From positions 434,001 through 498,000 of the forward strand of contig NZ_AUAS01000001.1 in the NCBI RefSeq assembly GCF_000428845.1: DNA of 64,000 nt, read 5' to 3'. Numbering within the stretch: the first letter of the stretch is position 1; every line of letters starts with the position of its first letter. Source of the DNA: Dyadobacter alkalitolerans DSM 23607 (GTDB lineage Bacteria; Bacteroidota; Bacteroidia; Cytophagales; Spirosomataceae). Position numbers and translations under genes: made by a program. The notes below the pieces were generated by a model. That model worked only from the letters and a program-made list of their open reading frames with translations. It made no database searches and had not been told where the DNA came from. Of this stretch, positions 33,893-45,535 are shown in pieces.

Positions 33893-33959
33893 AGCTCGAT
33901 TTTTTGGCAAAAGTAATAAACATGCAACGGACAAAAGAAGTTATTCTTATCAATATGAT

Positions 33960-33989
33960 TTGGAGAATTGCCGCTATTAAGTAATTTTG
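33960..33989 (+). promoter_or_regulatory. promoter of the tRNA gene
   Basis: TTG (33960-33962), exactly 19 bases, then TAATTTTG (33982-33989). A complete match to the Bacteroidota promoter, ending 11 bases before the mature tRNA 5' end. Confidence 0.85.
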
Positions 33990-34000
33990 CAGTCCTTATC

Positions 34001-34074
34001 GGGCCTATAGCTCATTCGGTTAGAGCAACTGACTCATAATCAGTAGGTGCCTGGTTCGATTCCAGGTGGGCCCA
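34001..34074 (+). tRNA. tRNA with CAT anticodon, probably tRNA-Ile2 (lysidine-modified)
   Basis: A 74-base cloverleaf: acceptor GGGCCTA/TGGGCCC, D arm GCTC/GAGC, anticodon arm ACTGA-CTCATAA-TCAGT, T arm CCTGG-TTCGATT-CCAGG, discriminator A; no encoded CCA. The CAT anticodon fits elongator Met, initiator Met or Ile2. The acceptor has C4-G69 and C5-G68, positions known as TilS identity elements in E. coli tRNA-Ile2, so I favour isoleucine. A full promoter precedes it and an intrinsic terminator follows. Its 3' half is repeated downstream. Confidence 0.9.
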
Positions 34075-34083
34075 CTACAATCA

Positions 34084-34113
34084 AGCACTTAACATTCGTT
34101 GAGTGCTATTTTT
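34084..34113 (+). terminator. tRNA terminator
   Basis: AGCACTTAAC, ATTC loop, GTTGAGTGCT (one G-U pair) followed by ATTTTT. The same hairpin recurs at 34184-34212 and 34283-34310 inside the tandem copies. Confidence 0.8.
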
Positions 34114-34114
34114 A

Positions 34115-34390
34115 TGACTCATAATCAGTAGGTGCCTGCCGGGCGGCCGGGCGGTTCGATTCCAGGTGGGCCCACTACAATCAAGCACTTAACATTCATT
34201 GAGTGCTTTTTTATGACTCATAATCAGTAGGTTCCTGCCGGGCCGCCGGGCGGTTCGATCCCAGGTGGGCCCACTACAATCAAGCACTTAACATTCGTTG
34301 AGTGCTTTTTTATGACTCATAACCAGCAGGTGCCTGCCGGGCCGCCGGGCGGTTCGATTCCAGATGGACCCACTTATAATCAAGTACTTA
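34115..34390 (+). repeat. three tandem copies of the tRNA 3' half plus terminator
   Basis: From the anticodon loop (TGACTCATAAT at 34030) the tRNA 3' half and terminator recur at 34115, 34214 and 34313, a 99-base period; the last copy breaks down after 34390. Each copy has a 15-base GC-rich insert between CCTG and GTTCGAT of the T arm (CCGGGCGGCCGGGCG in the first, CCGGGCCGCCGGGCG in the other two). The terminator hairpin is kept in copies one and two. Copy three has several substitutions and has lost the hairpin, so decay increases with distance from the tRNA. No 5' half is repeated, so none is a whole tRNA. Confidence 0.92.
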
Positions 34391-34482
34391 GCAACTTCAA
34401 AACCCTTATATACCAATCACCATTCTAATTTCAGCTCGATGCTCATAAATAGCGGTTATACTAACTGATATTAAAATAAAAC

Positions 34483-34500
34483 AATCGTAATATTGCGATT
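34483..34500 (+). promoter_or_regulatory. ArsR-type operator 1
   Basis: AATCGTAATATTGCGATT is palindromic at 16 of 18 positions. It overlaps the TTG element of the arsR promoter, the usual place for ArsR autorepression. A second copy lies at 34879. Confidence 0.7.
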
Positions 34501-34522
34501 TGAATAATTTGTGCTATGTTTG
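34493..34522 (+). promoter_or_regulatory. promoter of the ars operon
   Basis: TTG (34493-34495), 19 bases, TATGTTTG (34515-34522): a complete Bacteroidota promoter. The first usable ATG is at 34527, so the leader is very short or the message nearly leaderless. Confidence 0.8.
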
Positions 34523-34526
34523 CAGT

Positions 34527-34856
34527 ATGGGAGTTACGAAGACAGAAATTTTTACTGCACAACAAAACCGGATCGCGGACTTAGCAAAAGCATTTGCACA
34601 TCCCGCACGGGTTGCAATACTGCAGTTGCTAATTTCCCGGAAAGCTTGCGTTTGTGGTGATTTGGTTGATGAACTCGAACTTGCTCAGGCAACCGTTTCT
34701 CAGCACTTAAAGGAATTGAAACGAATAGGGATCATCCAGGGGGAGATTAACCCGCCACGTGTTTGCTATTGCATTAATCCGCCGGTATGGGAAGAAGCTC
34801 AGCGAGCGTTTGGTGCTATACTAAGATCTTTTGAAGGAGTGACCTGCTGCAACTAA
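34527..34856 (+). CDS. arsR: ArsR family transcriptional repressor
   Basis: A 109-residue winged-helix protein. The arsenic-sensing motif is ACVCGDL (Cys41, Cys43) in the helix before the recognition helix [18 protein letters not shown]; further cysteines lie in RVCYC and in the C-terminal CC. I chose the ATG at 34527 because the promoter -7 box lies at 34515-34522; an in-frame TTG at 34500 would start before the promoter. It should repress the operon until As(III) binds. Two matching operators flank the gene. Confidence 0.88.
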
Positions 34857-34878
34857 GAAGACATTTTTTCGACAAATC

Positions 34879-34895
34879 AATCGTAATATTACATT
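34879..34895 (+). promoter_or_regulatory. ArsR-type operator 2
   Basis: AATCGTAATATTACATT shares AATCGTAATATT with operator 1 and contains the perfect palindrome GTAATATTAC. It lies 15 bases before the DUF6428 gene, so the downstream genes may have their own ArsR-controlled start. Confidence 0.6.
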
Positions 34896-34910
34896 ATAAC
34901 AATAGGCACT

Positions 34911-35474
34911 ATGATTAACCAACCTAATCCAATGATCTGGCAAACGTTCAAAAGTACGCTTGAACAAAACCCTGATCTGCACCTGCAATTCCAATACGAA
35001 GCAGGCAAGTTTGTTGACAATTCGTTTCATATTACCGAGATTAAGCAGGCACCGATTGTTTCTGTTGATTGCGGTGGTGTCATCAGTAGCTGGACGGAAG
35101 TAATCGTGCAGCTTTGGGAGCCGCCAGTAAAAGAAGCTGATCGCTCGATGCAGGTTAGTAAGGCGCTAAAAATTATAAACCTGGTTGAAAAGTCATTGTC
35201 GCTGAATCCAAATGCCGTTGTGAAAATCGAATTCGGCAATTCCAAGTTCGACACCCGTCAAATGTATCCAGGTGAGCTTTTGGCCGAAAGTGACAGCTTT
35301 ATTGTCAATCTGGTTCCGGATTTTACCCAGTGCAAAGCACTCTCGCGAAACCAGGCTTGCGGGACAACCGCGGCAGATGCTTCATGCTGTGGCCCGGCAC
35401 CAGAAAAAACCGAGGAATTGGAACTTGTGGCAGCTGATGGCGCTGCGTGTAAACCGGGTTCGGGCTGCTGCTAA
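34911..35474 (+). CDS. DUF6428 family protein with Cys-rich tail
   Basis: 187 residues. The globular part (1-135: TFKSTLEQNPDLHLQFQYEA, DCGGVISSWTEVIVQLWEPP) fits DUF6428, a family found in ars operons of Bacteroidota. The last 50 residues carry seven cysteines (QCKAL, QACG, SCCGP, ACKPG, GCC), a likely As(III) or metal-binding tail. No signal peptide, so it is cytosolic. A role as arsenite chaperone or sink is inferred from position and cysteines, not known. It sits between arsR and arsC. Confidence 0.75.
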   Translation: MINQPNPMIWQTFKSTLEQNPDLHLQFQYEAGKFVDNSFHITEIKQAPIVSVDCGGVISSWTEVIVQLWEPPVKEADRSMQVSKALKIINLVEKSLSLNPNAVVKIEFGNSKFDTRQMYPGELLAESDSFIVNLVPDFTQCKALSRNQACGTTAADASCCGPAPEKTEELELVAADGAACKPGSGCC

Positions 35475-35494
35475 TTATCAATCAATTATCATAC

Positions 35495-35923
35495 ATGAAA
35501 AAAATTCTAGTGTTATGCACGGGCAATTCTGCCCGCAGCCAATTGGCGCAAGGTTACTTGCAGTATTTCGCCGGTGACCGCGCGGAAGTATATAGCGCCG
35601 GTGTTGATCCAAAAGGGGTTAACCCGGTTGCAATCCAGGTCATGGCCGAAGATGGCATTGATATCTCGCATCATACATCGAACCATGCCGACGAATACAC
35701 CGGCATCCCTTTCGATTATGTGATTACTGTTTGTGATAATGCCCGCGAGCAATGCCCTTATTTCCCGTCCGCTGGGGAAATGATCCATCAAAGCTTTTCA
35801 GATCCTGGCCATACCGCACCGGCGGACCTACCAGGTGAAGACCTGGAAACCTCATTCCGCAGGGTACGGGATGAAATAAAGGAATATAGCCGGGAGTTTA
35901 TCAATCAAAAATTGCCTGCCTGA
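35495..35923 (+). CDS. arsC: arsenate reductase, thioredoxin-linked (LMW-PTP fold)
   Basis: 142 residues. The P-loop LCTGNSARSQ with Cys8, and the redox pair Cys80 and Cys87 in VCDNAREQCPYFP, match the pI258-type ArsC that passes electrons from thioredoxin. It reduces As(V) to As(III) in the cytosol for export by Acr3. The stop overlaps the next start by one base (TGATG). Confidence 0.93.
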   Translation: MKKILVLCTGNSARSQLAQGYLQYFAGDRAEVYSAGVDPKGVNPVAIQVMAEDGIDISHHTSNHADEYTGIPFDYVITVCDNAREQCPYFPSAGEMIHQSFSDPGHTAPADLPGEDLETSFRRVRDEIKEYSREFINQKLPA

Positions 35924-36420
35924 TGACTTTCACCATCCGCCCCCTGATTGCGTCGGATTGGCCAGCGGTAAAGGAGATTTACCAGCTGGGCATTGATACC
36001 GGAGATGCAACTTATGAAACGCAGGCGCCGGAAGCCGAAGCACTGAAAGTGAAGTTTCTGACAGAGCCGCAGCTCGTTGCCGAAGATAGCGGCCAGGTGA
36101 TCGGCTGGGCCATGCTATCAGCTGTTTCCAGCCGATGCGTGTATGGTGGAGTAGCAGAAACGAGCATTTATATCCATTCCGGATATCAGGGGCGTGGTGT
36201 TGGCCGGGCGCTTTTATCTGCCCTGGTTCCGCTAAGCGAAGAGCTTGGCTACTGGACGTTGCAGGCACAAATATTCCCCGAAAATAAGGCCAGCATTGCC
36301 CTTCATGAGCACCACGGTTTTCGCCGAGTGGGCTACCGGGAAAAATTAGGAAAGCGCAATGGGGTTTGGCGGGACGTTCTGTTTTTGGAACGCCGCAGCG
36401 CGATTGTGGGAAATGATTAA
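35923..36420 (+). CDS. GNAT acetyltransferase, ArsN/PAT-like
   Basis: 165 residues. ETSIYIHSGYQGRGVGRALL is the acetyl-CoA pyrophosphate loop; the IYQLGIDTGDATYETQAP start, QIFPENKASIALHEHHGFRRVG and WRDVLFLERR are typical of phosphinothricin acetyltransferase-like proteins. Members in ars operons (ArsN) acetylate glutamate-like organoarsenicals. The place between arsC and acr3, with overlap or zero spacing on both sides, favours this role, but other amines remain possible. Confidence 0.8.
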   Translation: MTFTIRPLIASDWPAVKEIYQLGIDTGDATYETQAPEAEALKVKFLTEPQLVAEDSGQVIGWAMLSAVSSRCVYGGVAETSIYIHSGYQGRGVGRALLSALVPLSEELGYWTLQAQIFPENKASIALHEHHGFRRVGYREKLGKRNGVWRDVLFLERRSAIVGND

Positions 36421-37512
36421 ATGAAAAACTCCATGCAGGAAAAACGGCTTTCTTTTCTCGACCGATATTTGACGGTCTGGATATTCCTGGCGATGCTTTT
36501 GGGCGTATCCATCGGGTACTTTTTTCCAGGCACGTCCGATTTTATCAATCAATTTAATTCAGGTTCGAAAGGTGCGCCGGGCGCCGGACCGCCGGGCGCC
36601 GGAGCGCCGGGCGTCAATGTGCCGCTGGCCATTGGTTTGATCCTGATGATGTACCCACCACTTGCAAAGGTACGCTACTCGGAGCTTCCGCAGGTATTCA
36701 GGAATACCCGCATCCTAGGATTATCGCTGCTGCAAAATTGGATAGTAGGGCCACTGCTTATGTTTGGCCTGGCGGCAATATTCCTGCCGGACAAACCCGA
36801 ATATATGACCGGGCTAATTATGATTGGCATTGCGCGCTGTATTGCAATGGTAATCGTATGGAATGACCTTGCTGGCGGTGATCGCGTATATGCGGCAGGA
36901 CTGGTGGCATTCAACAGCATTTTTCAGGTGCTGTTCTACTCAGTCTATGCCTACGTATTCGTGACGCTGCTGCCGCCATTGTTTGGACTAAAAGGTTTCG
37001 CTGTTAACATAACGATGGGAGAAGTAGCGCAAAGCGTCTTTATCTATCTTGGCATTCCATTTTTAGCTGGAATCATTTCACGGGCAGTATTGACCGGGCT
37101 GTTTAGCAAACAGTGGTATGAGCAGAAATTTCTGCCTGCCATCAGCCCGATAACCCTGATTGCCTTGCTGTTTACCATTGTGGTGATGTTCAGCCTCAAA
37201 GGACAGTTGATCGTATCAATCCCAATGGATGTGCTGCGCATCGCCCTCCCGCTTACGATCTATTTTGCGATCATGTTTTTTTCTGCGTTTTACCTGTCAA
37301 AACGAGCGGGTGCGGATTATTCCAAATCTACTTCACTCGCTTTCACGGCCGCAGGCAACAATTTTGAATTAGGCATTGCGGTCGCAATTTCAGTTTTTGG
37401 CATCAATTCCGGAGCTGCATTTGCGGCAGTGATCGGGCCACTGATCGAAGTGCCGGTTTTAATCCTGATGGTCAACTTCGCTTTAAGGCAAAAAGGGGCA
37501 TTTCCTAAGTGA
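36421..37512 (+). CDS. acr3: Acr3 family arsenite efflux transporter
   Basis: 363 residues with about ten membrane segments. [20 protein letters not shown] opens the family; the essential Cys140 is in [30 protein letters not shown] is the late conserved block. It exports As(III) across the inner membrane. Between membrane segments 1 and 2 (about residues 51-65) there is a Gly/Pro/Ala repeat ([14 protein letters not shown]) where homologs have a short loop. It starts right after the GNAT stop, and its end abuts debris of an MBL gene. Confidence 0.92.
36574..36615 (+). repeat. 15-base GC-rich minisatellite inside acr3
   Basis: Two 15-base units (GCGCCGGGCGCCGGA, CCGCCGGGCGCCGGA) and a partial third encode the in-frame [14 protein letters not shown] segment of Acr3. 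The 10-mer CCGCCGGGCG also occurs in the inserts of tRNA copies two and three. Confidence 0.75.
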
Positions 37513-37530
37513 AACATAGAAATAAGCGTG

Positions 37531-37665
37531 TGCAATTTCCAAATGACTGCTGACAAAATCAGCATGTAAATGCGTTTCTATAACAGCGATTATCTTGCCC
37601 TGATGCTCTTCTGCAAAATCATAATACGGCTCTGGATTACGCCCCGGATCGATCAGTAACTGCAT
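37531..37665 (-). pseudogene. internal fragment of an MBL-fold (persulfide dioxygenase-like) gene
   Basis: 45 residues starting QLLIDPGRNPEPYYDFAEE and containing the metal motif ETHLHADFVSSH are clearly part of an MBL-fold hydrolase like the one at 38783-40201 (which has LETHFHADFVSGH). The N-terminal 20 residues and everything after HLEIA are missing. The fragment begins right after the YeeE/YedE stop and is cut off near the acr3 stop, so it is a relic at the ars/sulfur junction. Confidence 0.8.
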
Positions 37666-38166
37666 TTAATGGGGTAATTTATCCCTGAACCTGCCATATA
37701 CCCAGGTGCCTGCCACTGCACTAACCAGTGTGACGATTACAACAGTAGCACCCATACCAATCTGTGCAAACAAGGGTCCCGGACAAGCGCCGGTCAAACC
37801 CCAGCCCAGCCCGAACATTAAACCTCCGTAAATCTGTCCTTTGTTGAACTTCTTATCGGTGAAAGTGATAGCCTCCCCTGAAATCGTCCTGATATCAAAC
37901 CGCTTAATAAGCCAAACCGAAATCATTCCGACTACTACGGCGCTCCCGATAATGCCATACATATGAAACGATTGCAGCCGGAACATCTCCTGGATTCTAA
38001 ACCAGCTGATCACTTCTGCTTTCACAAAAAGAACTCCGAAAAGTAATCCAACCACAAGGTACTTCAGGTTATAATACCATTTGTGCTGTTCTTGACTCTC
38101 ATTGATGCAAATTGAATCCGTTGCCCGTATTTCATGCTCGCTTTGTGCCTTTAAGGTGTTTGTCAT
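37666..38166 (-). CDS. YeeE/YedE (DUF6691-like) membrane protein
   Basis: 166 residues, four membrane segments after a 35-residue hydrophilic N-terminus. The second half has GLMFGLGWGLTGACPGPLFAQIG, the conserved Cys motif of YeeE/YedE thiosulfate-transport-like half proteins. It follows its partner gene by four bases; together they make a two-part transporter for thiosulfate or another sulfur species. Confidence 0.82.
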   Translation of the reverse strand: MTNTLKAQSEHEIRATDSICINESQEQHKWYYNLKYLVVGLLFGVLFVKAEVISWFRIQEMFRLQSFHMYGIIGSAVVVGMISVWLIKRFDIRTISGEAITFTDKKFNKGQIYGGLMFGLGWGLTGACPGPLFAQIGMGATVVIVTLVSAVAGTWVYGRFRDKLPH

Positions 38167-38170
38167 CTGC

Positions 38171-38734
38171 TTACATCATTAATATGAAAGGCAATATCCA
38201 GTTTGCCATAACAAATCCGCCGATCATAAAACAGATGGTTGCTACCAATGAGGGCCATTGCAAAGTAGCAAGTCCCATGATTGCGTGACCGCTTGTACAT
38301 CCACCGGCATAGCGCGCGCCAAACCCTACCAGAAATCCACCGCCAACCATGATGATAAGTCCGGGCAGCGTTAAAAGCTTATTCCAACTTACCAGGTCAA
38401 CAGGCACGAGCGATGAAAAATCAGTGACACCATAAACGCTCAGCTCTTTTACCAACGACGGGTTCAGCTGTATTGGCGAGGTGTTGGCCAGAAATGTCAC
38501 TGCTATCACCCCTCCCAAAAAAATACCCAGCACAAAAAACATATTCCACAACTCCTTTTTCCAATCGTATTGAAAAAACGGGATTTTCGCCGGGACGCAC
38601 ATGGCGCAAACATGCCGGAGCGATGATGAGATCCCAAAGGACTTATTGCCCAGTATCAAAAGTGCAGGCACTGTAAGCCCAATCAGCGGTCCGGCCACAT
38701 ACCATGGCCAAGGCTGTTTTATAATTTCAAGCAT
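38171..38734 (-). CDS. YeeE/YedE family membrane protein
   Basis: 187 residues with about five membrane segments. [20 protein letters not shown] holds the conserved Cys of this family (thiosulfate or sulfur uptake, related to E. coli YeeE), and a second motif, [12 protein letters not shown], lies near residue 40. It is paired with the shorter YeeE-like gene at 37666 and sits just downstream of the CstB-like gene (48-base gap), so the three genes probably form one sulfur operon. Confidence 0.85.
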
Positions 38735-38782
38735 AATAAGTTGAAAGATGTGTTACTGAATCTTATTCCCTTGATAGTTTTA

Positions 38783-40201
38783 CTATAATGTACTTGGACA
38801 AATATAATTGCTTACTTCTAGCTTGTCTGAATCCTTTATTGCCTTGAAACCGCCCTGCACATCGATCAGATTGTCATATCCCCGTGCTTTGAGCACTGAA
38901 TTAAAAATCATTGACCGGTAACCTCCGGCACAGTGTACGAAGTAGGTTTTGTTTTTATCAATCCCCGCCAGATGATCATTGATGTAGTCTAGCGGGATAT
39001 TTTCTGCATTCAGCATATGCTCAGAGAGAAACTCACTTGTTTTGCGTACATCCAGCACGCCGATGGCAGGGTCCATTTTCAAGCGCTGACTCATCTGGTC
39101 AGCGGTTACTGACTGGATCTGGCTGGTTTCTTTACCGGCTTTGACCCAGGCATCGATCCCGCCTTTTAAATATCCAATCGTATGGTCATAGCCCACACGT
39201 GCAAGACGGGTCACCACTTCTTCTTCCCTGCCCTGCTCTGTGATCAGCAATATGTTCTGTTTGATGTCGGGAATAAGCGCTCCAACCCACGGAGCAAAGC
39301 CCCCATTTATTCCGATATTGATCGAGTTGGGAACGAAGCCTTTTGCAAAAATTTCTGCATCCCGGGTATCAAGGACGACCGCGCCAGTTTGGTTTGCCAC
39401 CGCCTCAAAAGCAGCCGCATCCAACTCCCGGGCTCCCCTTTCAAGAACCCTGTCAATGCTTTCGTAGCCCTGGATATTCATTAAAACGTTTTCAGGGAAG
39501 TAAGCCGGAGGCGGCATTAGCCCATGAGTAACTTCTTTGACAAATTCTGCCTTGGTCATATCCGGCCGAAGTGCATAGTTGGAGATTTTCTGGCTACCCA
39601 ATGTATCGGTCGTTTCCTTACTCATGTTTTTGCCGCACGCACTTCCTGCGCCGTGAGCCGGATAAACAATGATCTCATCAGCAAGCGGCATAATCTTATC
39701 GCGTAAAGAATCGAAAAGATGCTCCGCAAGCTTTTGTTGTGTCAGCTCTGCGGATACTTTTTGAGCCAGATCAGGACGCCCTACATCACCAATGAACAAG
39801 GTATCCCCCGTGAAAATGCCCACCTGCTTTCCCATTTCGTCACTTAAAAGATAGCAGGTGCTTTCCATGGTGTGCCCCGGCGTATGCAGCACTGTAAGCG
39901 AAACATCGCCGACTTTCAGCACCTGGCCATCCACGGCTACCAGCGCTTCAAAGCCAGGTTTTGCGGTTGGACCAAAAACAATCTGCGCTCCTGTTTTCTC
40001 AGCAAGGTCAATGTGGCCCGACACGAAATCCGCGTGAAAATGTGTTTCAAGTACGTATTTTATTTTTGCCCCATCTTTTTCAGCACGGTTCATATAAGGC
40101 CCCACTTCACGGAGCGGATCAATTACCACAGCTTCCCCATAACTTTCAATATAATAAGCACCTTGCGATAGGCAACCTGTATAGATTTGTTCGAGTTTCA
40201 T
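38783..40201 (-). CDS. CstB-like persulfide dioxygenase with two rhodanese domains
   Basis: 472 residues. An MBL persulfide dioxygenase domain (1-250) with metal ligands in ETHFHADFVSGH (His54, His56, Asp58), HTPGHT and GDTLFIGDVGRPDL; a first rhodanese domain (about 255-355) whose active loop reads LITEQGREEE, with Glu in place of the catalytic Cys; and a second rhodanese with Cys424 in VHCAGGYRS. This order (dioxygenase, dead rhodanese, live rhodanese) is that of S. aureus CstB, which turns persulfides into thiosulfate during sulfide detoxification. Confidence 0.88.
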   Translation of the reverse strand: MKLEQIYTGCLSQGAYYIESYGEAVVIDPLREVGPYMNRAEKDGAKIKYVLETHFHADFVSGHIDLAEKTGAQIVFGPTAKPGFEALVAVDGQVLKVGDVSLTVLHTPGHTMESTCYLLSDEMGKQVGIFTGDTLFIGDVGRPDLAQKVSAELTQQKLAEHLFDSLRDKIMPLADEIIVYPAHGAGSACGKNMSKETTDTLGSQKISNYALRPDMTKAEFVKEVTHGLMPPPAYFPENVLMNIQGYESIDRVLERGARELDAAAFEAVANQTGAVVLDTRDAEIFAKGFVPNSINIGINGGFAPWVGALIPDIKQNILLITEQGREEEVVTRLARVGYDHTIGYLKGGIDAWVKAGKETSQIQSVTADQMSQRLKMDPAIGVLDVRKTSEFLSEHMLNAENIPLDYINDHLAGIDKNKTYFVHCAGGYRSMIFNSVLKARGYDNLIDVQGGFKAIKDSDKLEVSNYICPSTL

Positions 40202-40270
40202 ATTTGTTGTCTTTTATAAATCCTGTTTGAATTAATAATACAAATTTCGGGATGCGAAGCTGGCTGGTCA

Positions 40271-40284
40271 GTGACAAGAGTCAC
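40271..40284. promoter_or_regulatory. candidate Crp/Fnr-type operator
   Basis: GTGAC-AAGA-GTCAC is a perfect 5-4-5 inverted repeat about 70 bases upstream of the CstB-like start. The flanking GGTCAGTGAC (40266-40275) recurs as GGTTAGTGAC at 40320-40329. A Crp/Fnr regulator is encoded at 41028. The 135-base spacer shows no clear TAnnTTTG box. Confidence 0.45.
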
Positions 40285-40336
40285 ATTGCAAGAAAAAATG
40301 AAAATGATTTCACCTTCATGGTTAGTGACCACAAAC

Positions 40337-41107
40337 TTATTTAAGATGCATTAATTCTGAGGATATAATGTAAATCCCCATCACCAGTACAAACCAGCCA
40401 AACCCTTTTTTCAAAGAAGTAGCATTTACCCTTTTGGCCAAGATTCCCCCAATCAGAATACCAGCCATAGCGACACCTGTGATTTCTAATAAAAAAGCCC
40501 AGTCAATCATGAAATGTCCTATATCGCCTGCAAATCCGATCAGCGAATTCAGTGCAATAATAAGAAGCGAAGTGCCCACAGCTTCCTTCATAGGCATTCC
40601 CAGGATCAATACCAATGTCGGTATCAACAAAAACCCGCCCCCTGCTCCCAGAAAACCCGTAGTAAGTCCGATGCCGATGCCACTTAAAAGCATCCGGATA
40701 ACATTACCCTTTAAGTCACACTCCATACACCCAGGTTTCCGCTCCTTGCTTTTGATCATGCCTCTTGATGCGGCTACCATGAGCACAGCAAAAAGCATCA
40801 TCGTGAGTAAGGGTTCAGTAACCCGAAATGCGCCAATGCTGAAAAGGTCATGAGGGACCAAAGGAATTAAAAACTTACGCGTCAGGAAAACGGTTGTGAT
40901 CGATGTGCTTCCAAATAGCAGCGCCGTCTTAATTTTGACGGCACCTTTGCGGTAATTGCTGTATGCACCGACAAGACTGGTTGAGCCGACAATAAACAGC
41001 GAGTAGGATGTCGACACCAAAGGACTAATGCCGAATATCCTGAGAAATATTCCAGCCGGGCAGGTCATCATGCGGACCGGGCAATATATCAAACACACGT
41101 TACTCAT
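40337..41107 (-). CDS. TauE/SafE (TSUP) sulfite exporter, 5'-truncated
   Basis: The frame is 256 residues, but the family part begins only at residue 24 (IFGISPLVSTSYSLFIVGSTSLVG, from about 41038). The usual first membrane segment with GGGGSILTVP is missing and replaced by an unrelated Cys-rich sequence (MSNVCLIYCPVRMMTCPAG) read from the antisense of the Crp/Fnr gene. The second half repeat (GFLGAGGGFLLIPTLVLILG) is intact. TSUP proteins export sulfite or sulfoacetate and pair with CstB in other bacteria. With one half-motif gone, function is doubtful. Confidence 0.75.
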   Translation of the reverse strand: MSNVCLIYCPVRMMTCPAGIFLRIFGISPLVSTSYSLFIVGSTSLVGAYSNYRKGAVKIKTALLFGSTSITTVFLTRKFLIPLVPHDLFSIGAFRVTEPLLTMMLFAVLMVAASRGMIKSKERKPGCMECDLKGNVIRMLLSGIGIGLTTGFLGAGGGFLLIPTLVLILGMPMKEAVGTSLLIIALNSLIGFAGDIGHFMIDWAFLLEITGVAMAGILIGGILAKRVNATSLKKGFGWFVLVMGIYIISSELMHLK

Positions 41108-41597
41108 CGGAAGCGGCAGGGTAAGGCTTTACCGTCAGGGCGACGATGGACAGGAAGCTTTCATTTATGATCTGGAACCGGGAAATGCATGTGCCTTGTC
41201 GATGATCTGTAATACAAAACAGGAAGCGAGTGAGATCATGGCCAAAACAGTGGAAGATACCGTTGCTGTCATGATACCGATCCAGTTGATGGACGAGCTT
41301 ATGCAGCAATATAAAACCTGGTACTACTTCGTCATTGCCAACTACCGGGCCCGTTTTGAAGAACTGCTGGTGGTGTTCGACAATGTAGTCTTCAAGGCCA
41401 TGGACGAAAGACTGGAATTTTATCTGAAAAACCAGTTTGCCAGTAGCAAGGGGAACCAGATATTTATCACCCACCAGGAAATTGCCAATGACCTCAATAC
41501 TTCGCGGGAGGTTATATCAAGATTGTTAAAGAAAATGGAACAGGACAGCAAAATCAGACTAAACAGAAATAGTATAGAATGGCTTACCGGGATGTAG
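41028..41597 (+). CDS. Crp/Fnr family regulator, probably 5'-truncated
   Basis: 189 residues: a cyclic-nucleotide-binding-like barrel (IPAGQVIMRTGQYIKHTLLI, GRVRLYRQGDDGQEAFIYDL, ACALSMI), a dimer helix, and a winged helix with FITHQEIANDLNTSREVISRLLKKME. About 20-25 N-terminal residues usual in this group are absent, and the ATG at 41028 lies inside the facing TauE gene, so the start appears to be a chance codon after a deletion. The DNA-binding part is complete. Its natural targets would be the adjacent sulfur genes. Confidence 0.78.
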   Translation: MPNILRNIPAGQVIMRTGQYIKHTLLIGSGRVRLYRQGDDGQEAFIYDLEPGNACALSMICNTKQEASEIMAKTVEDTVAVMIPIQLMDELMQQYKTWYYFVIANYRARFEELLVVFDNVVFKAMDERLEFYLKNQFASSKGNQIFITHQEIANDLNTSREVISRLLKKMEQDSKIRLNRNSIEWLTGM

Positions 41598-41606
41598 TTT
41601 AACTGA

Positions 41607-41781
41607 CTACTCGCTAATTCGGATGTAGCACTGCAGGTAAGCCACCTGGCCGCCTGCTTTCCGGACGCGTTCTGTAAGGTTGCTAAAGGTCTGACCTTCG
41701 GGCACCCGGCACCACCTTCGCTCCCCGTGCCGCCAGCAGTTCCGCCGTGGTTTCACATATTCCGCTATTGCGCCAGTAATG
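41607..41781 (-). pseudogene. fragment of an SDR dehydrogenase, frameshifted
   Basis: Pieces of the N-terminal Rossmann region can be read in two frames: AITGA, then SGICETTAELLAARGAKVVPGARR, then in another frame ERVRKAGGQVAYLQC. These match the order ITGASSGIGE, GARR, RIRKAGGQ..YLQCDVT of classical SDRs. Single-base losses break the frame at least twice and the remainder of the gene is absent. Confidence 0.7.
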
Positions 41782-41886
41782 GCGCCCCTGCAACTGCTGC
41801 TCCTCATTGGACGAAGGAACAATCTGCAATTGCTGCGGCTTCACCGTCGAAACTGCGCCGGTAACCTGGCTGCGGTTCTCGTTCGC
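41782..41886 (-). pseudogene. short fragment resembling a SusC-like TonB receptor plug
   Basis: 35 codons read NRSQVTGAVSTVKPQQLQIV followed by NEEQQLQGR. This is the V.GAVS.V...L..VP....EQ.LQGR pattern at the beginning of SusC-type plug domains. An in-frame stop precedes it and it is joined directly to the SDR fragment at the LQGR end, where the AGV block should follow. The match is short, so the call is tentative. Confidence 0.4.
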
Positions 41887-42159
41887 AATTTATTTTCCGT
41901 TAAATAACCAGCACGAACCGCAGGAACATTATCCTATATTTTCGTCGCTTCGTTATAATGTTATGCACTATTATTGGGCGCAATTAACAGGTAGTACTAC
42001 ACTCGTTAGATAATACTACAAGCATCCGACTCGACTTCATCTTCTTGAATTTGCCATTCAAAGCGGTAAGCATAATCACTTGCTACAACTCTGCTTGTCT
42101 AATCTAAGGTTTCAGTGATCAGTTTCTGTTTATATGTCCCACTTAAAAACAAACATAGA
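41887..42159. other. spacer without recognisable genes
   Basis: AT-rich stretch between the gene debris and the SGNH lipoprotein gene. I see no open frame, terminator, tRNA or clear promoter box in it. Confidence 0.5.
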
Positions 42160-43551
42160 ATGAAGAAGTTGTTCTTATTAATCGCCCTTGCGGCATGCAA
42201 CGAACCATCACCCGGCTGGCCCGAACCGAAGCCAAAAGTGCCGGTTTACATTCCCACGGCAGAAGATTCGGCCAGAACGCGCGGGCCATTTATGCGCATT
42301 CACCCCATGGGTCGATTTCCCGAGATGATTTCTGACAATATTGAACGCAAACCAATACTCAAAATTGAAGAATGGCTATCATCAGAACTTCCGCTTGCCG
42401 ATTTCGGGCGGATCCTCAAACCGGGACTGGAAATGGAGATGATTGCGTTCGGAGGCGGTCTGACTGCAGGAGTGATGAATGGCGGTATTACCCGGGAAAG
42501 CCAGCAAACCAACTACACAAATCTGCTCGCTCATCAAATGGGCATCAAAAACTTCGCGATGCCGCTGTTTGAAAAAGAACATTATAACGGAACGGGATAT
42601 TACGTATACCGTAATACGGAAAGCGAATACCCGCAATGGGACCGGGTTGTGAATAATACCATTTCGATTGCTCCGGGCAGCCCGCCCACTATGCCCCGTT
42701 ATCCGGGTAAGATTTCGAATTACGGATTATTTGAAGGCGGCACGGAATGGTTTGTTCCGGGCTGGGGCTGTGAGAATTGCGACTTGACTAAATTTCTGGT
42801 AACTAGATTTGATGGGCATATTCCAGCCGAAATACCCTACAATTTCGTAATCGTCGATGAGTTCTTTGACAGTTGGATGTATGGAATCCAAAATACACCC
42901 CGGATCAATCTTTTCAGTTATTCATTCAATGGCTCCATTATGAATACAGGCAGGATTGTAGATTATGCCATCAATTATAATCTGCATGGTAAAAAGGGTG
43001 TAATTTTTACCATCCCGCGATACCAGCACCTACCGTACATGAATTGGTATCCGATGGACAAATTTAAAAATGTGTCTATCAGTTTTGATAAGAACCATAT
43101 TGGGGATGGTGCAATAAATCCTTTAAAACCATTTTCATTGATTCCGACTGCCAAGTTGGATGCCATTTGTAAAAGATCCGAAAATGGCTTTTTAGTCGCT
43201 AATTTCCCTGATGTCGAGGTAATTGATGCAGGAGAAACCTACCAATCCGATCCACGACTATACTACAATCAAAAGATCAGAGACTATGCAGCAGAAAAAG
43301 ATCTTGCCGTCGTCGATCTTTTTGATCTCTACCAGCGCATTTATCAAGGCGGATATAAAACGGATGACGGAATCGCAATAGATGGCACTGCTCATGGCAA
43401 TTTCTTTTCTTCGGACGGGATCTATCCTTCAGCGCTTGGACAGGCCATTATTGCAAATGAGGTTATCAAGGCCATTAATAATTATTATGGGGCAAAAATC
43501 CCCTTGATAGACCTTAAAGGGTTTGCTAAGACAACAGGCCTGAAAAATTAG
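42160..43551 (+). CDS. SGNH/GDSL-fold lipoprotein lacking catalytic Ser and His
   Basis: 463 residues from MKKLFLLIALAAC (lipobox LAAC; an upstream in-frame start at 42115 would spoil the signal peptide). The layout follows Bacteroidota SGNH hydrolases: block I is IAFGGGLTAGVMNGGI, and block V is SSDGIYPSALGQAIIANEVI. In active enzymes block I is GxSLTAG and block V DGxHP. Here Gly100 replaces the nucleophile Ser and Tyr422 replaces the His, while Asp419 stays. The protein is therefore probably a non-enzymatic, surface-located binding protein, or has a changed mechanism. Confidence 0.65.
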   Translation: MKKLFLLIALAACNEPSPGWPEPKPKVPVYIPTAEDSARTRGPFMRIHPMGRFPEMISDNIERKPILKIEEWLSSELPLADFGRILKPGLEMEMIAFGGGLTAGVMNGGITRESQQTNYTNLLAHQMGIKNFAMPLFEKEHYNGTGYYVYRNTESEYPQWDRVVNNTISIAPGSPPTMPRYPGKISNYGLFEGGTEWFVPGWGCENCDLTKFLVTRFDGHIPAEIPYNFVIVDEFFDSWMYGIQNTPRINLFSYSFNGSIMNTGRIVDYAINYNLHGKKGVIFTIPRYQHLPYMNWYPMDKFKNVSISFDKNHIGDGAINPLKPFSLIPTAKLDAICKRSENGFLVANFPDVEVIDAGETYQSDPRLYYNQKIRDYAAEKDLAVVDLFDLYQRIYQGGYKTDDGIAIDGTAHGNFFSSDGIYPSALGQAIIANEVIKAINNYYGAKIPLIDLKGFAKTTGLKN

Positions 43552-43588
43552 CTCTCATCATTATTAAATTCACATTAACTCTCTTACG

Positions 43589-45406
43589 ATGAAAGTATTT
43601 TTTCGATGGATCTTCGTAGCCATTTGTCTGATAACAAAAATTTCCAGCGCCCAAACTGTCTCACTCTCCTATCCAATTAATAATTCTGTAATCCAACGCA
43701 GCACGCTGAATAAAGCGACAGTGACTGTTGCAGGGCAGCTCATTCATAATACGCTGGCAGTTACTTTAAGTTACAAAATACGTACGGTGAGCGCTACCGG
43801 TGTCATAGGCGCGGCAGGACCAGCCACGAACCTTGGCTTTGCATCAAATGGCATGTTTTATACTACGCTGGTTGTGAACAAAGGTTGGTATGTATGTGAA
43901 ATTCTTCTCAATGGTGTGGCGTATGCATCTAACAAATTTGGGATCGGCGATGTGTTCATAATTGCTGGACAATCCAATGCACAAGGCGTTGAAAAGCCTA
44001 ATTACTTGCTGCCGAACAGTGCAAGTATTCCAGAGTGGGTTGTCGGCTCATCAGAAGATAGGACATGTACAAAAACCTTTCCCTCATCCTTCACAAGTAT
44101 GTTCTCTCTAAACACAACGGATGAAGCAAAAAGGCATGGCAGATTAGGTCCTTCCGGAAGTACTATCTGGGCTTACGGCACATTGGGCAAGCTCATTTCT
44201 GATGCTAACGGAGGGATGCCGGTGGCCTTCTTCAATGCTGCAACCGGTGGATCTTCCATTACGGAATGGAAACAAGGCAGTGACGGTGTCGAAGCCAAAC
44301 ATCCCTATACTGGTGCACAGGTCTGTTTGGGCTATGAGGAAGGCTCCATTATTCCTTCTGATTATTACGGCTTACCATACACAACCTTGAAAAATGCCTT
44401 AAATTTTTACGGCTCACTATTTGGCGTAAGAGCTATACTTTGGCACCAGGGAGAGACTGACGCGGACTTATCCGTCAACGCGAGCTACAAAGCGACTAGT
44501 TCCGCCGACTACCAAGCCAAACTACAAGCTGTCATCGCCAAGTCCCGTTCAGATTTCGGCGCACCTAATCTTGCCTGGTATATTTCCAAAGCGTCTATCA
44601 GCAAATTTGGGCCCCTGAATGCAACCGTTAGAACCGGGCAAGGGAATGTGGCCACTGGCTCTCCCAACCTAAGCGGGGCTGATACGGATTATGTGGTGGG
44701 AAGTTCCGGAGCCACTACGCACGTTCTTGGCAACGACAGATATAGAGTAGACACCACCCATTTCTACGAAGGGACTGGATCAATTAAAGGGCTTACCTGG
44801 CTTGCTAACAAATGGTTTCAAACAATCGGAGCGTTGGGATCGCCCATTGCAGCCAGCTGGGTGCCACAATTGACATATTCCAAAAATGCCGACTGGCGGA
44901 CACTTACTGCGCCCGGCGGGGCTGTTCAATACATTTGGAGCAAGGTTGGGATCAACGGCCCCGCCGTGCCGGGAGGGAATGCAAATGTTTATACCACAGA
45001 CGAGCAATATCTTGGACTTCGCTGTTATATGAAGGATGCAAATGGTAACTGGCACGCTTCATCAGCTATTACTGTGGGTAAATATGCTAGTCAACGCATT
45101 GGAACTGACGTCGAGGAAAAAGAAACAGCCGAAGAAGCGGGCTTAAAATTGAATGCTTATCCCAATCCATTTTCAACAAACTTTACCATTGCATTTGATG
45201 TGCCTGATGAAAATAGCCTCGTCAAACTGGAAATTATTGATGGTCAGGGTAGAGTGATAAAAACAGTCGTAGACAATCCCCACGCAAAAGGAAAATGGCA
45301 TTATGAAGTACAAAACTTGCCTAACCAATCGACTGAAATTTTGTTTTGCAGACTAAAAATCAATGAACATTCCACAGTCAGGAAGTTGTTACAACTCACG
45401 AAATGA
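43589..45406 (+). CDS. sialate O-acetylesterase-like protein with T9SS sorting domain
   Basis: 605 residues. A signal peptide (1-21), an N-terminal beta domain (to about 125), then the SASA/SGNH domain with FIIAGQSNAQGVEKP (catalytic Ser) and LWHQGETDA, and a late TTHFYEGTG block. The last 85 residues (LKLNAYPNPFSTNFTIAFDV, then VKLEIIDGQGRVIKT and VRKLLQLTK) form a type A T9SS C-terminal domain, so it is secreted through the outer membrane and attached to the surface. It likely removes acetyl groups from glycans. It follows the SGNH lipoprotein by 37 bases. Confidence 0.82.
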   Translation: MKVFFRWIFVAICLITKISSAQTVSLSYPINNSVIQRSTLNKATVTVAGQLIHNTLAVTLSYKIRTVSATGVIGAAGPATNLGFASNGMFYTTLVVNKGWYVCEILLNGVAYASNKFGIGDVFIIAGQSNAQGVEKPNYLLPNSASIPEWVVGSSEDRTCTKTFPSSFTSMFSLNTTDEAKRHGRLGPSGSTIWAYGTLGKLISDANGGMPVAFFNAATGGSSITEWKQGSDGVEAKHPYTGAQVCLGYEEGSIIPSDYYGLPYTTLKNALNFYGSLFGVRAILWHQGETDADLSVNASYKATSSADYQAKLQAVIAKSRSDFGAPNLAWYISKASISKFGPLNATVRTGQGNVATGSPNLSGADTDYVVGSSGATTHVLGNDRYRVDTTHFYEGTGSIKGLTWLANKWFQTIGALGSPIAASWVPQLTYSKNADWRTLTAPGGAVQYIWSKVGINGPAVPGGNANVYTTDEQYLGLRCYMKDANGNWHASSAITVGKYASQRIGTDVEEKETAEEAGLKLNAYPNPFSTNFTIAFDVPDENSLVKLEIIDGQGRVIKTVVDNPHAKGKWHYEVQNLPNQSTEILFCRLKINEHSTVRKLLQLTK

Positions 45407-45535
45407 TTGAAAAGAAGAAACATTAAACCTCATTTAAGCCCAAGGCACATAGATTTCAAGCAGACAGAATATCGATTTGGTTTCCTAAGTTGAAATAAAA
45501 TCATTTCCTTAGCCGGAACAACCGATAACTGCAAA

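Follow-up and report, generated by a model that had tools for sequence, protein, structure and literature searches.

Behind the tyrT gene of E. coli lie the rtT repeats, tandem repeats that each contain tRNA 3´ sequence, and Rfam includes an rtT family. Short dispersed palindromes, some of them within genes, have been described as REP and REPIN sequences (PMC3733652, PMC6006769) and as Rickettsia palindromic elements (PMC3733652), and the length of REPs is stated as 20–40 bp (PMC3733652). Even closer to what is reported here are very short GC-rich hairpins dispersed in mitochondrial DNA, the GC clusters of yeast (PMC4478555) and the hairpin elements of sponges (PMC2800124). GC42 has a length of 42 nucleotides and GC clusters are flanked by AG or ACT repeats (PMC4478555). 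In the window, the whole 64-kb stretch of Dyadobacter DNA that was analysed, we found an array of tRNA 3´ halves which is probably dead DNA that caught a very small dispersed element.

The only tRNA gene in the window is an intact tRNA-CAU at 34001–34074, on the plus strand like all parts of the array (ARAGORN and Rfam; Rfam end 34074/5, 69.7 bits). It is one of three CAU tRNAs in the genome and is probably tRNA-Ile2, since the other two resemble initiator and elongator Met. A Bacteroidota-type promoter, TTTG-N19-TAATTTTG, can be recognised by eye at 33959–33989, where an earlier note on this DNA had claimed only a complete promoter for the tRNA; it agrees with the Bacteroidota consensus, and the same element was seen in L002. 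A sigma-70 scan, which does not cover promoters of the Bacteroidota type, returned no promoter upstream of tRNA-CAU.

Downstream of the tRNA and its terminator, a hairpin with a T run (34084–34112), the earlier note had read three copies of the tRNA 3´ half with a 99-base period, and both Tandem Repeats Finder and alignment agree with this reading. Among the seven Tandem Repeats Finder rows of the window the array has the top score (34053–34390, period 99, 3.4 copies, 93% matches, score 588; runner-up 71). All three copies start at tRNA position 30, and the gaps between them are at most 40 bases. Copy 1 (34115–34175) comprises tRNA letters 30–75 and equals the tRNA outside the insert, copy 2 follows at 34214–34274, and copy 3 (34313–34390) shows the greatest decay. 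Identity to the tRNA, given for two blocks each, falls from 100/100 to 96/95 and 92/91%, so that decay indeed grows with distance. Terminators had likewise been assigned to the tRNA and the first two copies; we located those of copies 1 and 2 at 34183–34213 and 34282–34312 and can add that copy 3 has lost most of its own. Terminator-like hairpins with T runs, starting at 34084, 34183 and 34282, were thus observed three times, with 0.4 expected. Every copy contains the T-arm insert that had been noticed before, 15 nucleotides in each case, located between tRNA letters 53 and 54, one base 5´ of the T loop and before GTTCGA. This mini-hairpin module reads CCGGGCGGCCGGGCG in copy 1 (34139–34153) and CCGGGCCGCCGGGCG in copies 2 (34238–34252) and 3 (34337–34351).

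The functional tRNA-CAU is present at full length with at most two mismatches in all 48 Dyadobacter genomes, and six of them have downstream 3´-half copies (L039, L065, L071, L074, L107, L108). G020 carries two such copies with a 72-base period and the same insert as the window, and G064 and G015 carry one copy each, again with this insert. Species sharing one insert therefore differ in unit length (72 versus 99 bases), and copy number varies too. Because three relatives share the insert, G020 at a 72-base period, the insert predates the tandem duplication, in line with the earlier note. Counting 700 bases upstream and 900 downstream by hand, and excluding a minus-strand match (L066) and a copy resembling another tRNA (L077), we found a pseudo-copy adjacent to tRNA-CAU in 23 of the 48 genomes and none in 25. 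Upstream copies retain the 5´ part, with D and anticodon inserts, and downstream copies retain the 3´ part, with T-arm inserts and in some cases anticodon inserts. The 5´ parts of tRNA-CAU with a D-loop module like CAAARCGTTTGCCCGG (L006, L007, L065, L067, L069, L086 and others) stand directly 5´ of the functional tRNA and may therefore belong to its leader transcript. At L113/L065 (G063:C1 near 832–833 kb) a 3´-half array has T-arm inserts of 21 to 94 nucleotides, apparently several modules combined.

The insert of the window belongs to a module family, family A (CCGGGCSGCCGGGCG), with 265 copies in the 48 Dyadobacter genomes, compared to 2 for the reversed pattern; 38 genomes are positive and 10 lack it. 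In the window's own genome nine exact copies were found, three in the array and six outside it, five of these in REPIN-like arms and one at a contig end, which answers the question of whether the insert occurs elsewhere. Across the genus it is found in one arm of REPIN-like repeats, in transposase genes, and in copies of several tRNAs, where it occupies the T arm. Outside tRNA copies its usual location is one arm of a REPIN-like palindrome, of the kind GTCACCCTGAGCGGA^GTCGAAGGG; at L289, L319 and L320 the other arm is without interruption, showing that the module is a true insertion there. Without insert, the REPIN core has 38 exact copies in the own genome; by manual count, 28 of these form inverted pairs spaced at most 70 bases apart. 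Four of 13 genomes (G001, G004, G007, G010) lack the REP core and contain 0, 0, 1 and 1 family A copies, and the nine with the core contain 1 to 27; transport of the module by REPINs would lead to such tracking. Sorting the 61 distinct flanks of 12+12 bases by script gave 32 REPIN-like flanks, eight tRNA T arms and 21 others. Eleven of the latter lie in or at most 70 bases from a frame with transposase Pfam matches, one is tRNA-Lys (L192), one is REP-like (L317), and eight have no class (L125, L212, L256, L269, L270, L271, L283, L293).

A sister module, family B (CGCGCGGCGKCCGC), is the usual anticodon insert; pseudo-copies of the Pro, Ser and Thr tRNAs have it reversed, in their T arms. Its 15-letter form has 50 copies in 16 of 16 Dyadobacter genomes (reversed pattern 1) and none in eight genomes of other families. 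Family B was also found in 14 of 14 Dyadobacter genomes and in seven of 32 genomes of other Spirosomataceae genera, with controls at 0. The matches in 16 genomes outside Spirosomataceae are given no weight since the reversed control is about equally frequent. Allowing up to two mismatches yields 21 matches in the own genome versus 28 for the reversed pattern, which is background, so that only exact or near-exact copies were counted; within the window family B is at chance level. The 69 flanks of family B were classified in part. Taking both families together, the 14 exact copies of the own genome are distributed over tRNA pseudo-copies (6), REPIN-like arms (5), transposase frames (2) and a contig end (1).

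Pfam analysis of 40 stop-to-stop frames at or beside A and B sites assigned 19 to transposases (rve, rve_3, HTH_Tnp_1, HTH_21, Mu C-terminal, ISL3, IS110, IstB, IS4/5) and six to other proteins (L123 and L293 once, L259 and L270 twice each), and 15 had no match. Further module flanks resemble short intergenic repeats by eye. In five species (L131, L132, L133, L170, L265) family B is located at one shared place in apparent IS3-type transposase genes, after TGGA and before G[CT][AG]TGGATTT; the assignment comes from Pfam for L131 and L170 and from flank similarity for the other three. The shared place may go back to a single inherited event or to repeated insertion. A phage origin was rejected, since the phage matches among those listed (20 of 298) cover only the tRNA and a few adjacent bases, and a plasmid origin was rejected for want of any plasmid match. 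Two module-in-context patterns had no exact match in viral contigs.

The tRNA-CAU locus is not the only tRNA affected. In the own genome a pseudo-copy lies near eight of the 35 tRNA genes, and at seven of them an insert-bearing one is present: Lys (two genes), Pro-TGG, Pro-GGG, Asp (two genes with one common copy) and the tRNA-CAU of the window. At the eighth gene, which is probably initiator Met, the copy is partial and lacks an insert. Among 35 tRNA-Lys genes (30 loci), 15 have pseudo-copies and 13 have inserts, and in G184, from another genus, pseudo-copies were found at two and inserts at one of 35 tRNA genes. ARAGORN labels an 89-nucleotide insert-bearing copy (L251) as tRNA-Lys. We surveyed 162 tRNA loci, which were chosen by match and thus are non-random and biased towards matches; a copy with functional genes of the same type on both sides was counted twice (L043, L136, L202). 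The 97 pseudo-copies contain 84 inserts of at least 6 nucleotides, which by manual grouping fall into the D loop (10), the anticodon arm (26) and the T arm (48). Their positions recur: 16 of the 26 anticodon-arm inserts are located exactly between loop bases 1 and 2, and 42 of the 48 T-arm inserts at most two bases from the T loop. Compound inserts are present as well (CGCGCGGCGGCCGC + AGTTCCACTGGGG; CGCGCGGCGTCCGC + AATTCGATTGGCG). The exact pattern of the D-loop module was found solely at the tRNA-CAU locus, in 10 of 48 genomes, and this module was rejected as a dispersed element.

The modules have a length of 13–17 nucleotides; the window module, with 15 nucleotides and a 4-bp stem, is found inside a REPIN-like arm elsewhere. 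When inserts were defined automatically and clustered at an edit distance over 4, 10 of the 14 cluster representatives had a perfect stem of at least four pairs with a loop of 3–5 nucleotides, and none of 2000 mononucleotide shuffles reached 10 (mean 2.5, maximum 8). For all 37 distinct inserts, 19 had such stems compared to a shuffle mean of 8.6 (0/2000). These values supersede an earlier test with module boundaries chosen by hand (22 of 29 with stems of at least 4, shuffle mean 6.6). In one T-site group a core of CG-CGAT-CG or similar is constant and the outer pairs covary: TTCG/CGAA, GGCG/CGCC (once CGTC, with a G-T pair), GCCG/CGGC, and GACG/CGTC with loop CGCC. The base to the left of family A is A in 42 and G in 16 of the 61 distinct flanks (A or G in 58), and the base to the right is G in 59, followed by T in 44. 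Thus, there is no consistent target-site duplication, and a single-base ambiguity persists. For family B the following G is part of the search pattern. When the joined flanks (40+40 bases) were folded to test for insertion into hairpin loops, insertion sites did not clearly exceed neighbouring positions in any of the classes, the tRNA classes with a known place being equally without signal.

The same module is found at unrelated sites, and tandem units around one insert differ between species. Judged from the sequences, insertion is precise relative to the neighbouring intact gene or palindrome arm, from which we infer a mobile or copied module with G(T) as its target. The modules behave as if they were an extremely short mobile or hitchhiking element. 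Their exact conservation across the genus could alternatively mean that the modules themselves are under selection. The history of the array was probably as follows. A second copy of the tRNA-CAU gene would have arisen beside the functional gene. A 15-nucleotide GC-rich hairpin module, visible as an insertion when compared to the intact tRNA, would subsequently have been placed by some enzyme into the T arm of this copy, just 5´ of GTTCGA. The 3´ half together with the terminator was then copied in tandem, as the comparison of species shows, with a spacing of 99 bases in the lineage of the window and of 72 bases in G020, and the copies would have decayed neutrally.

The analysis revealed neither an inserting enzyme nor an excision product nor a recent insertion, and 15 nucleotides is, to our knowledge, far below the length of any known transposon. 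Y1 transposases are encoded in 13 of 13 Dyadobacter genomes tested, with two matches in the own genome. Neither a REP nor a module was present near them in eight gene regions from five Dyadobacter genomes (0 of 8); a Y1 transposase was therefore rejected as a module neighbour and is only a candidate for inserting the modules. It is possible, and we put it forward tentatively, that an undescribed activity of Spirosomataceae places hairpin modules of 13–17 nucleotides before G(T) in duplicated DNA, i.e. in REPIN arms, in transposase genes and, at three constant loop positions, in broken tRNA copies, and that modules are reused between sites and stacked.

Another reading would be a repeat-directed process, a loose analogue of fungal RIP, which puts modules into tRNA copies, REPINs and transposase genes and thereby inactivates them. 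It would account for the fact that 13 of the 14 exact copies in the own genome are located in tRNA pseudo-copies, REPIN-like arms or transposase frames and that all 48 genomes retain an intact functional tRNA-CAU. However, hitchhiking on amplifying hosts combined with loss from single-copy sites would give the same picture, as illustrated by the family A counts in genomes without the REP core (0–1 copies) and with it (1–27). In addition, most REPIN arms are without insert, and four sites in other genomes (L123, L259, L270, L293) are in or near ordinary genes. We thus regard such a process as unlikely; if it exists, it would be a new bacterial way of disarming duplicated and mobile DNA.

There is a slight chance that the array is transcribed into small RNAs in the manner of the rtT repeats at tyrT, with which it shares tandem repeats containing tRNA 3´ sequence and, in two copies, retained terminators. 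But the only Rfam family above its cut-off is the tRNA itself, the 61-nucleotide copies fold no better than shuffles (z +0.33 to +0.43), the copies decay, and species differ in unit length and copy number. A role of the copies as a source of tRNA-half-like RNAs, which the earlier note had also suggested, has no support from this folding test.

Repeated integration of islands at the tRNA 3´ end, followed by loss, had been suggested by the earlier note, which pointed to an arsenic island behind the array. The segment itself could be confirmed: approximately 11 kb of arsenic and sulfur genes (about 34400–45535, no strand assigned, outside the array) encode an ArsR-type regulator, DUF6428, a low-molecular-weight phosphatase-type protein, an SBF transporter and persulfide/sulfite functions. 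Within the coding sequence of the SBF-family transporter, a GCGCCGG-type short tandem repeat (36574–36613) includes near matches to family A. In G020, G015 and G064 the glycosyl hydrolase 43 gene, which is located at 45.5 kb in the window, adjoins the array, and thus the segment is extra in the window. Since these three relatives have the insert-bearing copies without the segment, the array is independent of it; copies in relatives lacking the island are just what the note had named as speaking against integration. In addition, none of the ten ORFs tested at 34.5–47 kb is an integrase, no further tRNA piece was detected in 32–48 kb outside the array (E up to 1e-5), and copies of the insert are scattered among Dyadobacter genomes.

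In many Dyadobacter genomes tRNA-CAU is an apparent island site, with 3´ fragments 12–142 kb away on the same contig (G029:C9 220773–241980, G014:C30 27051–47433, G022:C2, G010:C41, G036:C1, G023:C23, G019:C1, G060:C8). In G014 and G029, insert-bearing pseudo-copies are located just past the distant 3´ fragment, which is clean in G014. Use as an island site in G029, G014, G022, G010, G036 and others would fit island scars in the window, as would the start of the array copies at position 30, close to that of the distant fragments (about 26–33). The anticodon and T loops are moreover known integrase subsites (PMC4383910). However, the distant fragments examined (L005, L009, L013, L008) are without insert, and the insert-bearing copies of G014 are found past its apparent island, beside the clean fragment. 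Scars of repeated integration are thus quite improbable as the origin of the array. It is very improbable that the broken tRNA copies persist because they act as decoys or barriers against integrases, with modules in the two dyads that these enzymes use: the insert positions do correspond to the anticodon-loop and T-loop subsites (PMC4383910) and several tRNAs are flanked by pseudo-copies, but a split dyad should cease to be a target, 25 of 48 genomes have no adjacent pseudo-copy at tRNA-CAU, and the REPIN-like repeats and transposase genes that also contain modules are not expected to include an integrase site.

Insertions of invariant sequences of 14 or 15 nucleotides at recurrent sites are a poor fit to usual transposition, slippage and integrase action. 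If the proposed placing activity is real, the modules would represent the shortest mobile DNA on record, or else part of a repeat-tagging system that inactivates extra copies. A functional gene beside its tRNA pseudo-copy provides a clean comparison of filled and empty sites, which makes the mechanism testable. Such arrays may also mislead tRNA annotators, as in the L251 case, and the mapping of islands by tRNA fragments. None of the open-access papers among the matches listed was seen to describe this module phenomenon.

Of the known systems, the rtT repeats have the same layout as the array, tandem repeats 3´ of a tRNA gene that contain its 3´ sequence. Sequence and size differ, the array has no Rfam rtT match at E up to 1, and we know of no module in the tRNA part of rtT. 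The tRNA fragments left by islands are, like the array copies, 3´ fragments starting near the anticodon loop (Islander, PMC4383910). In contrast to them, the array has no island or integrase between its copies and forms a 99-base tandem; as judged from the ten ORFs tested at 34.5–47 kb, no displaced fragment brackets an integrase segment together with the intact tRNA, and the tRNA 3´ end is broken by the internal 15-nucleotide insert in all three copies. The modules are probably a variant of short mobile hairpins, and the array is most likely not an island scar. They resemble REPs, REPINs and Rickettsia palindromic elements in being short dispersed palindromes, some within genes (PMC3733652, PMC6006769); unlike REPs they are located inside REPIN-like repeats, and at 15 nucleotides the module falls short of a 20–40 bp palindrome of high copy number. 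With the yeast GC clusters and the sponge elements (PMC4478555, PMC2800124) they share merged compound forms and the lack of an encoded protein. They differ from GC clusters in being shorter (13–17 nucleotides) and bacterial, in their location before G(T) without evident duplication, and in their fixed places in tRNA pseudo-copies. Being GC-rich dispersed hairpins with filled and empty sites, the modules, by analogy, appear to act most like the mitochondrial GC clusters (PMC4478555).
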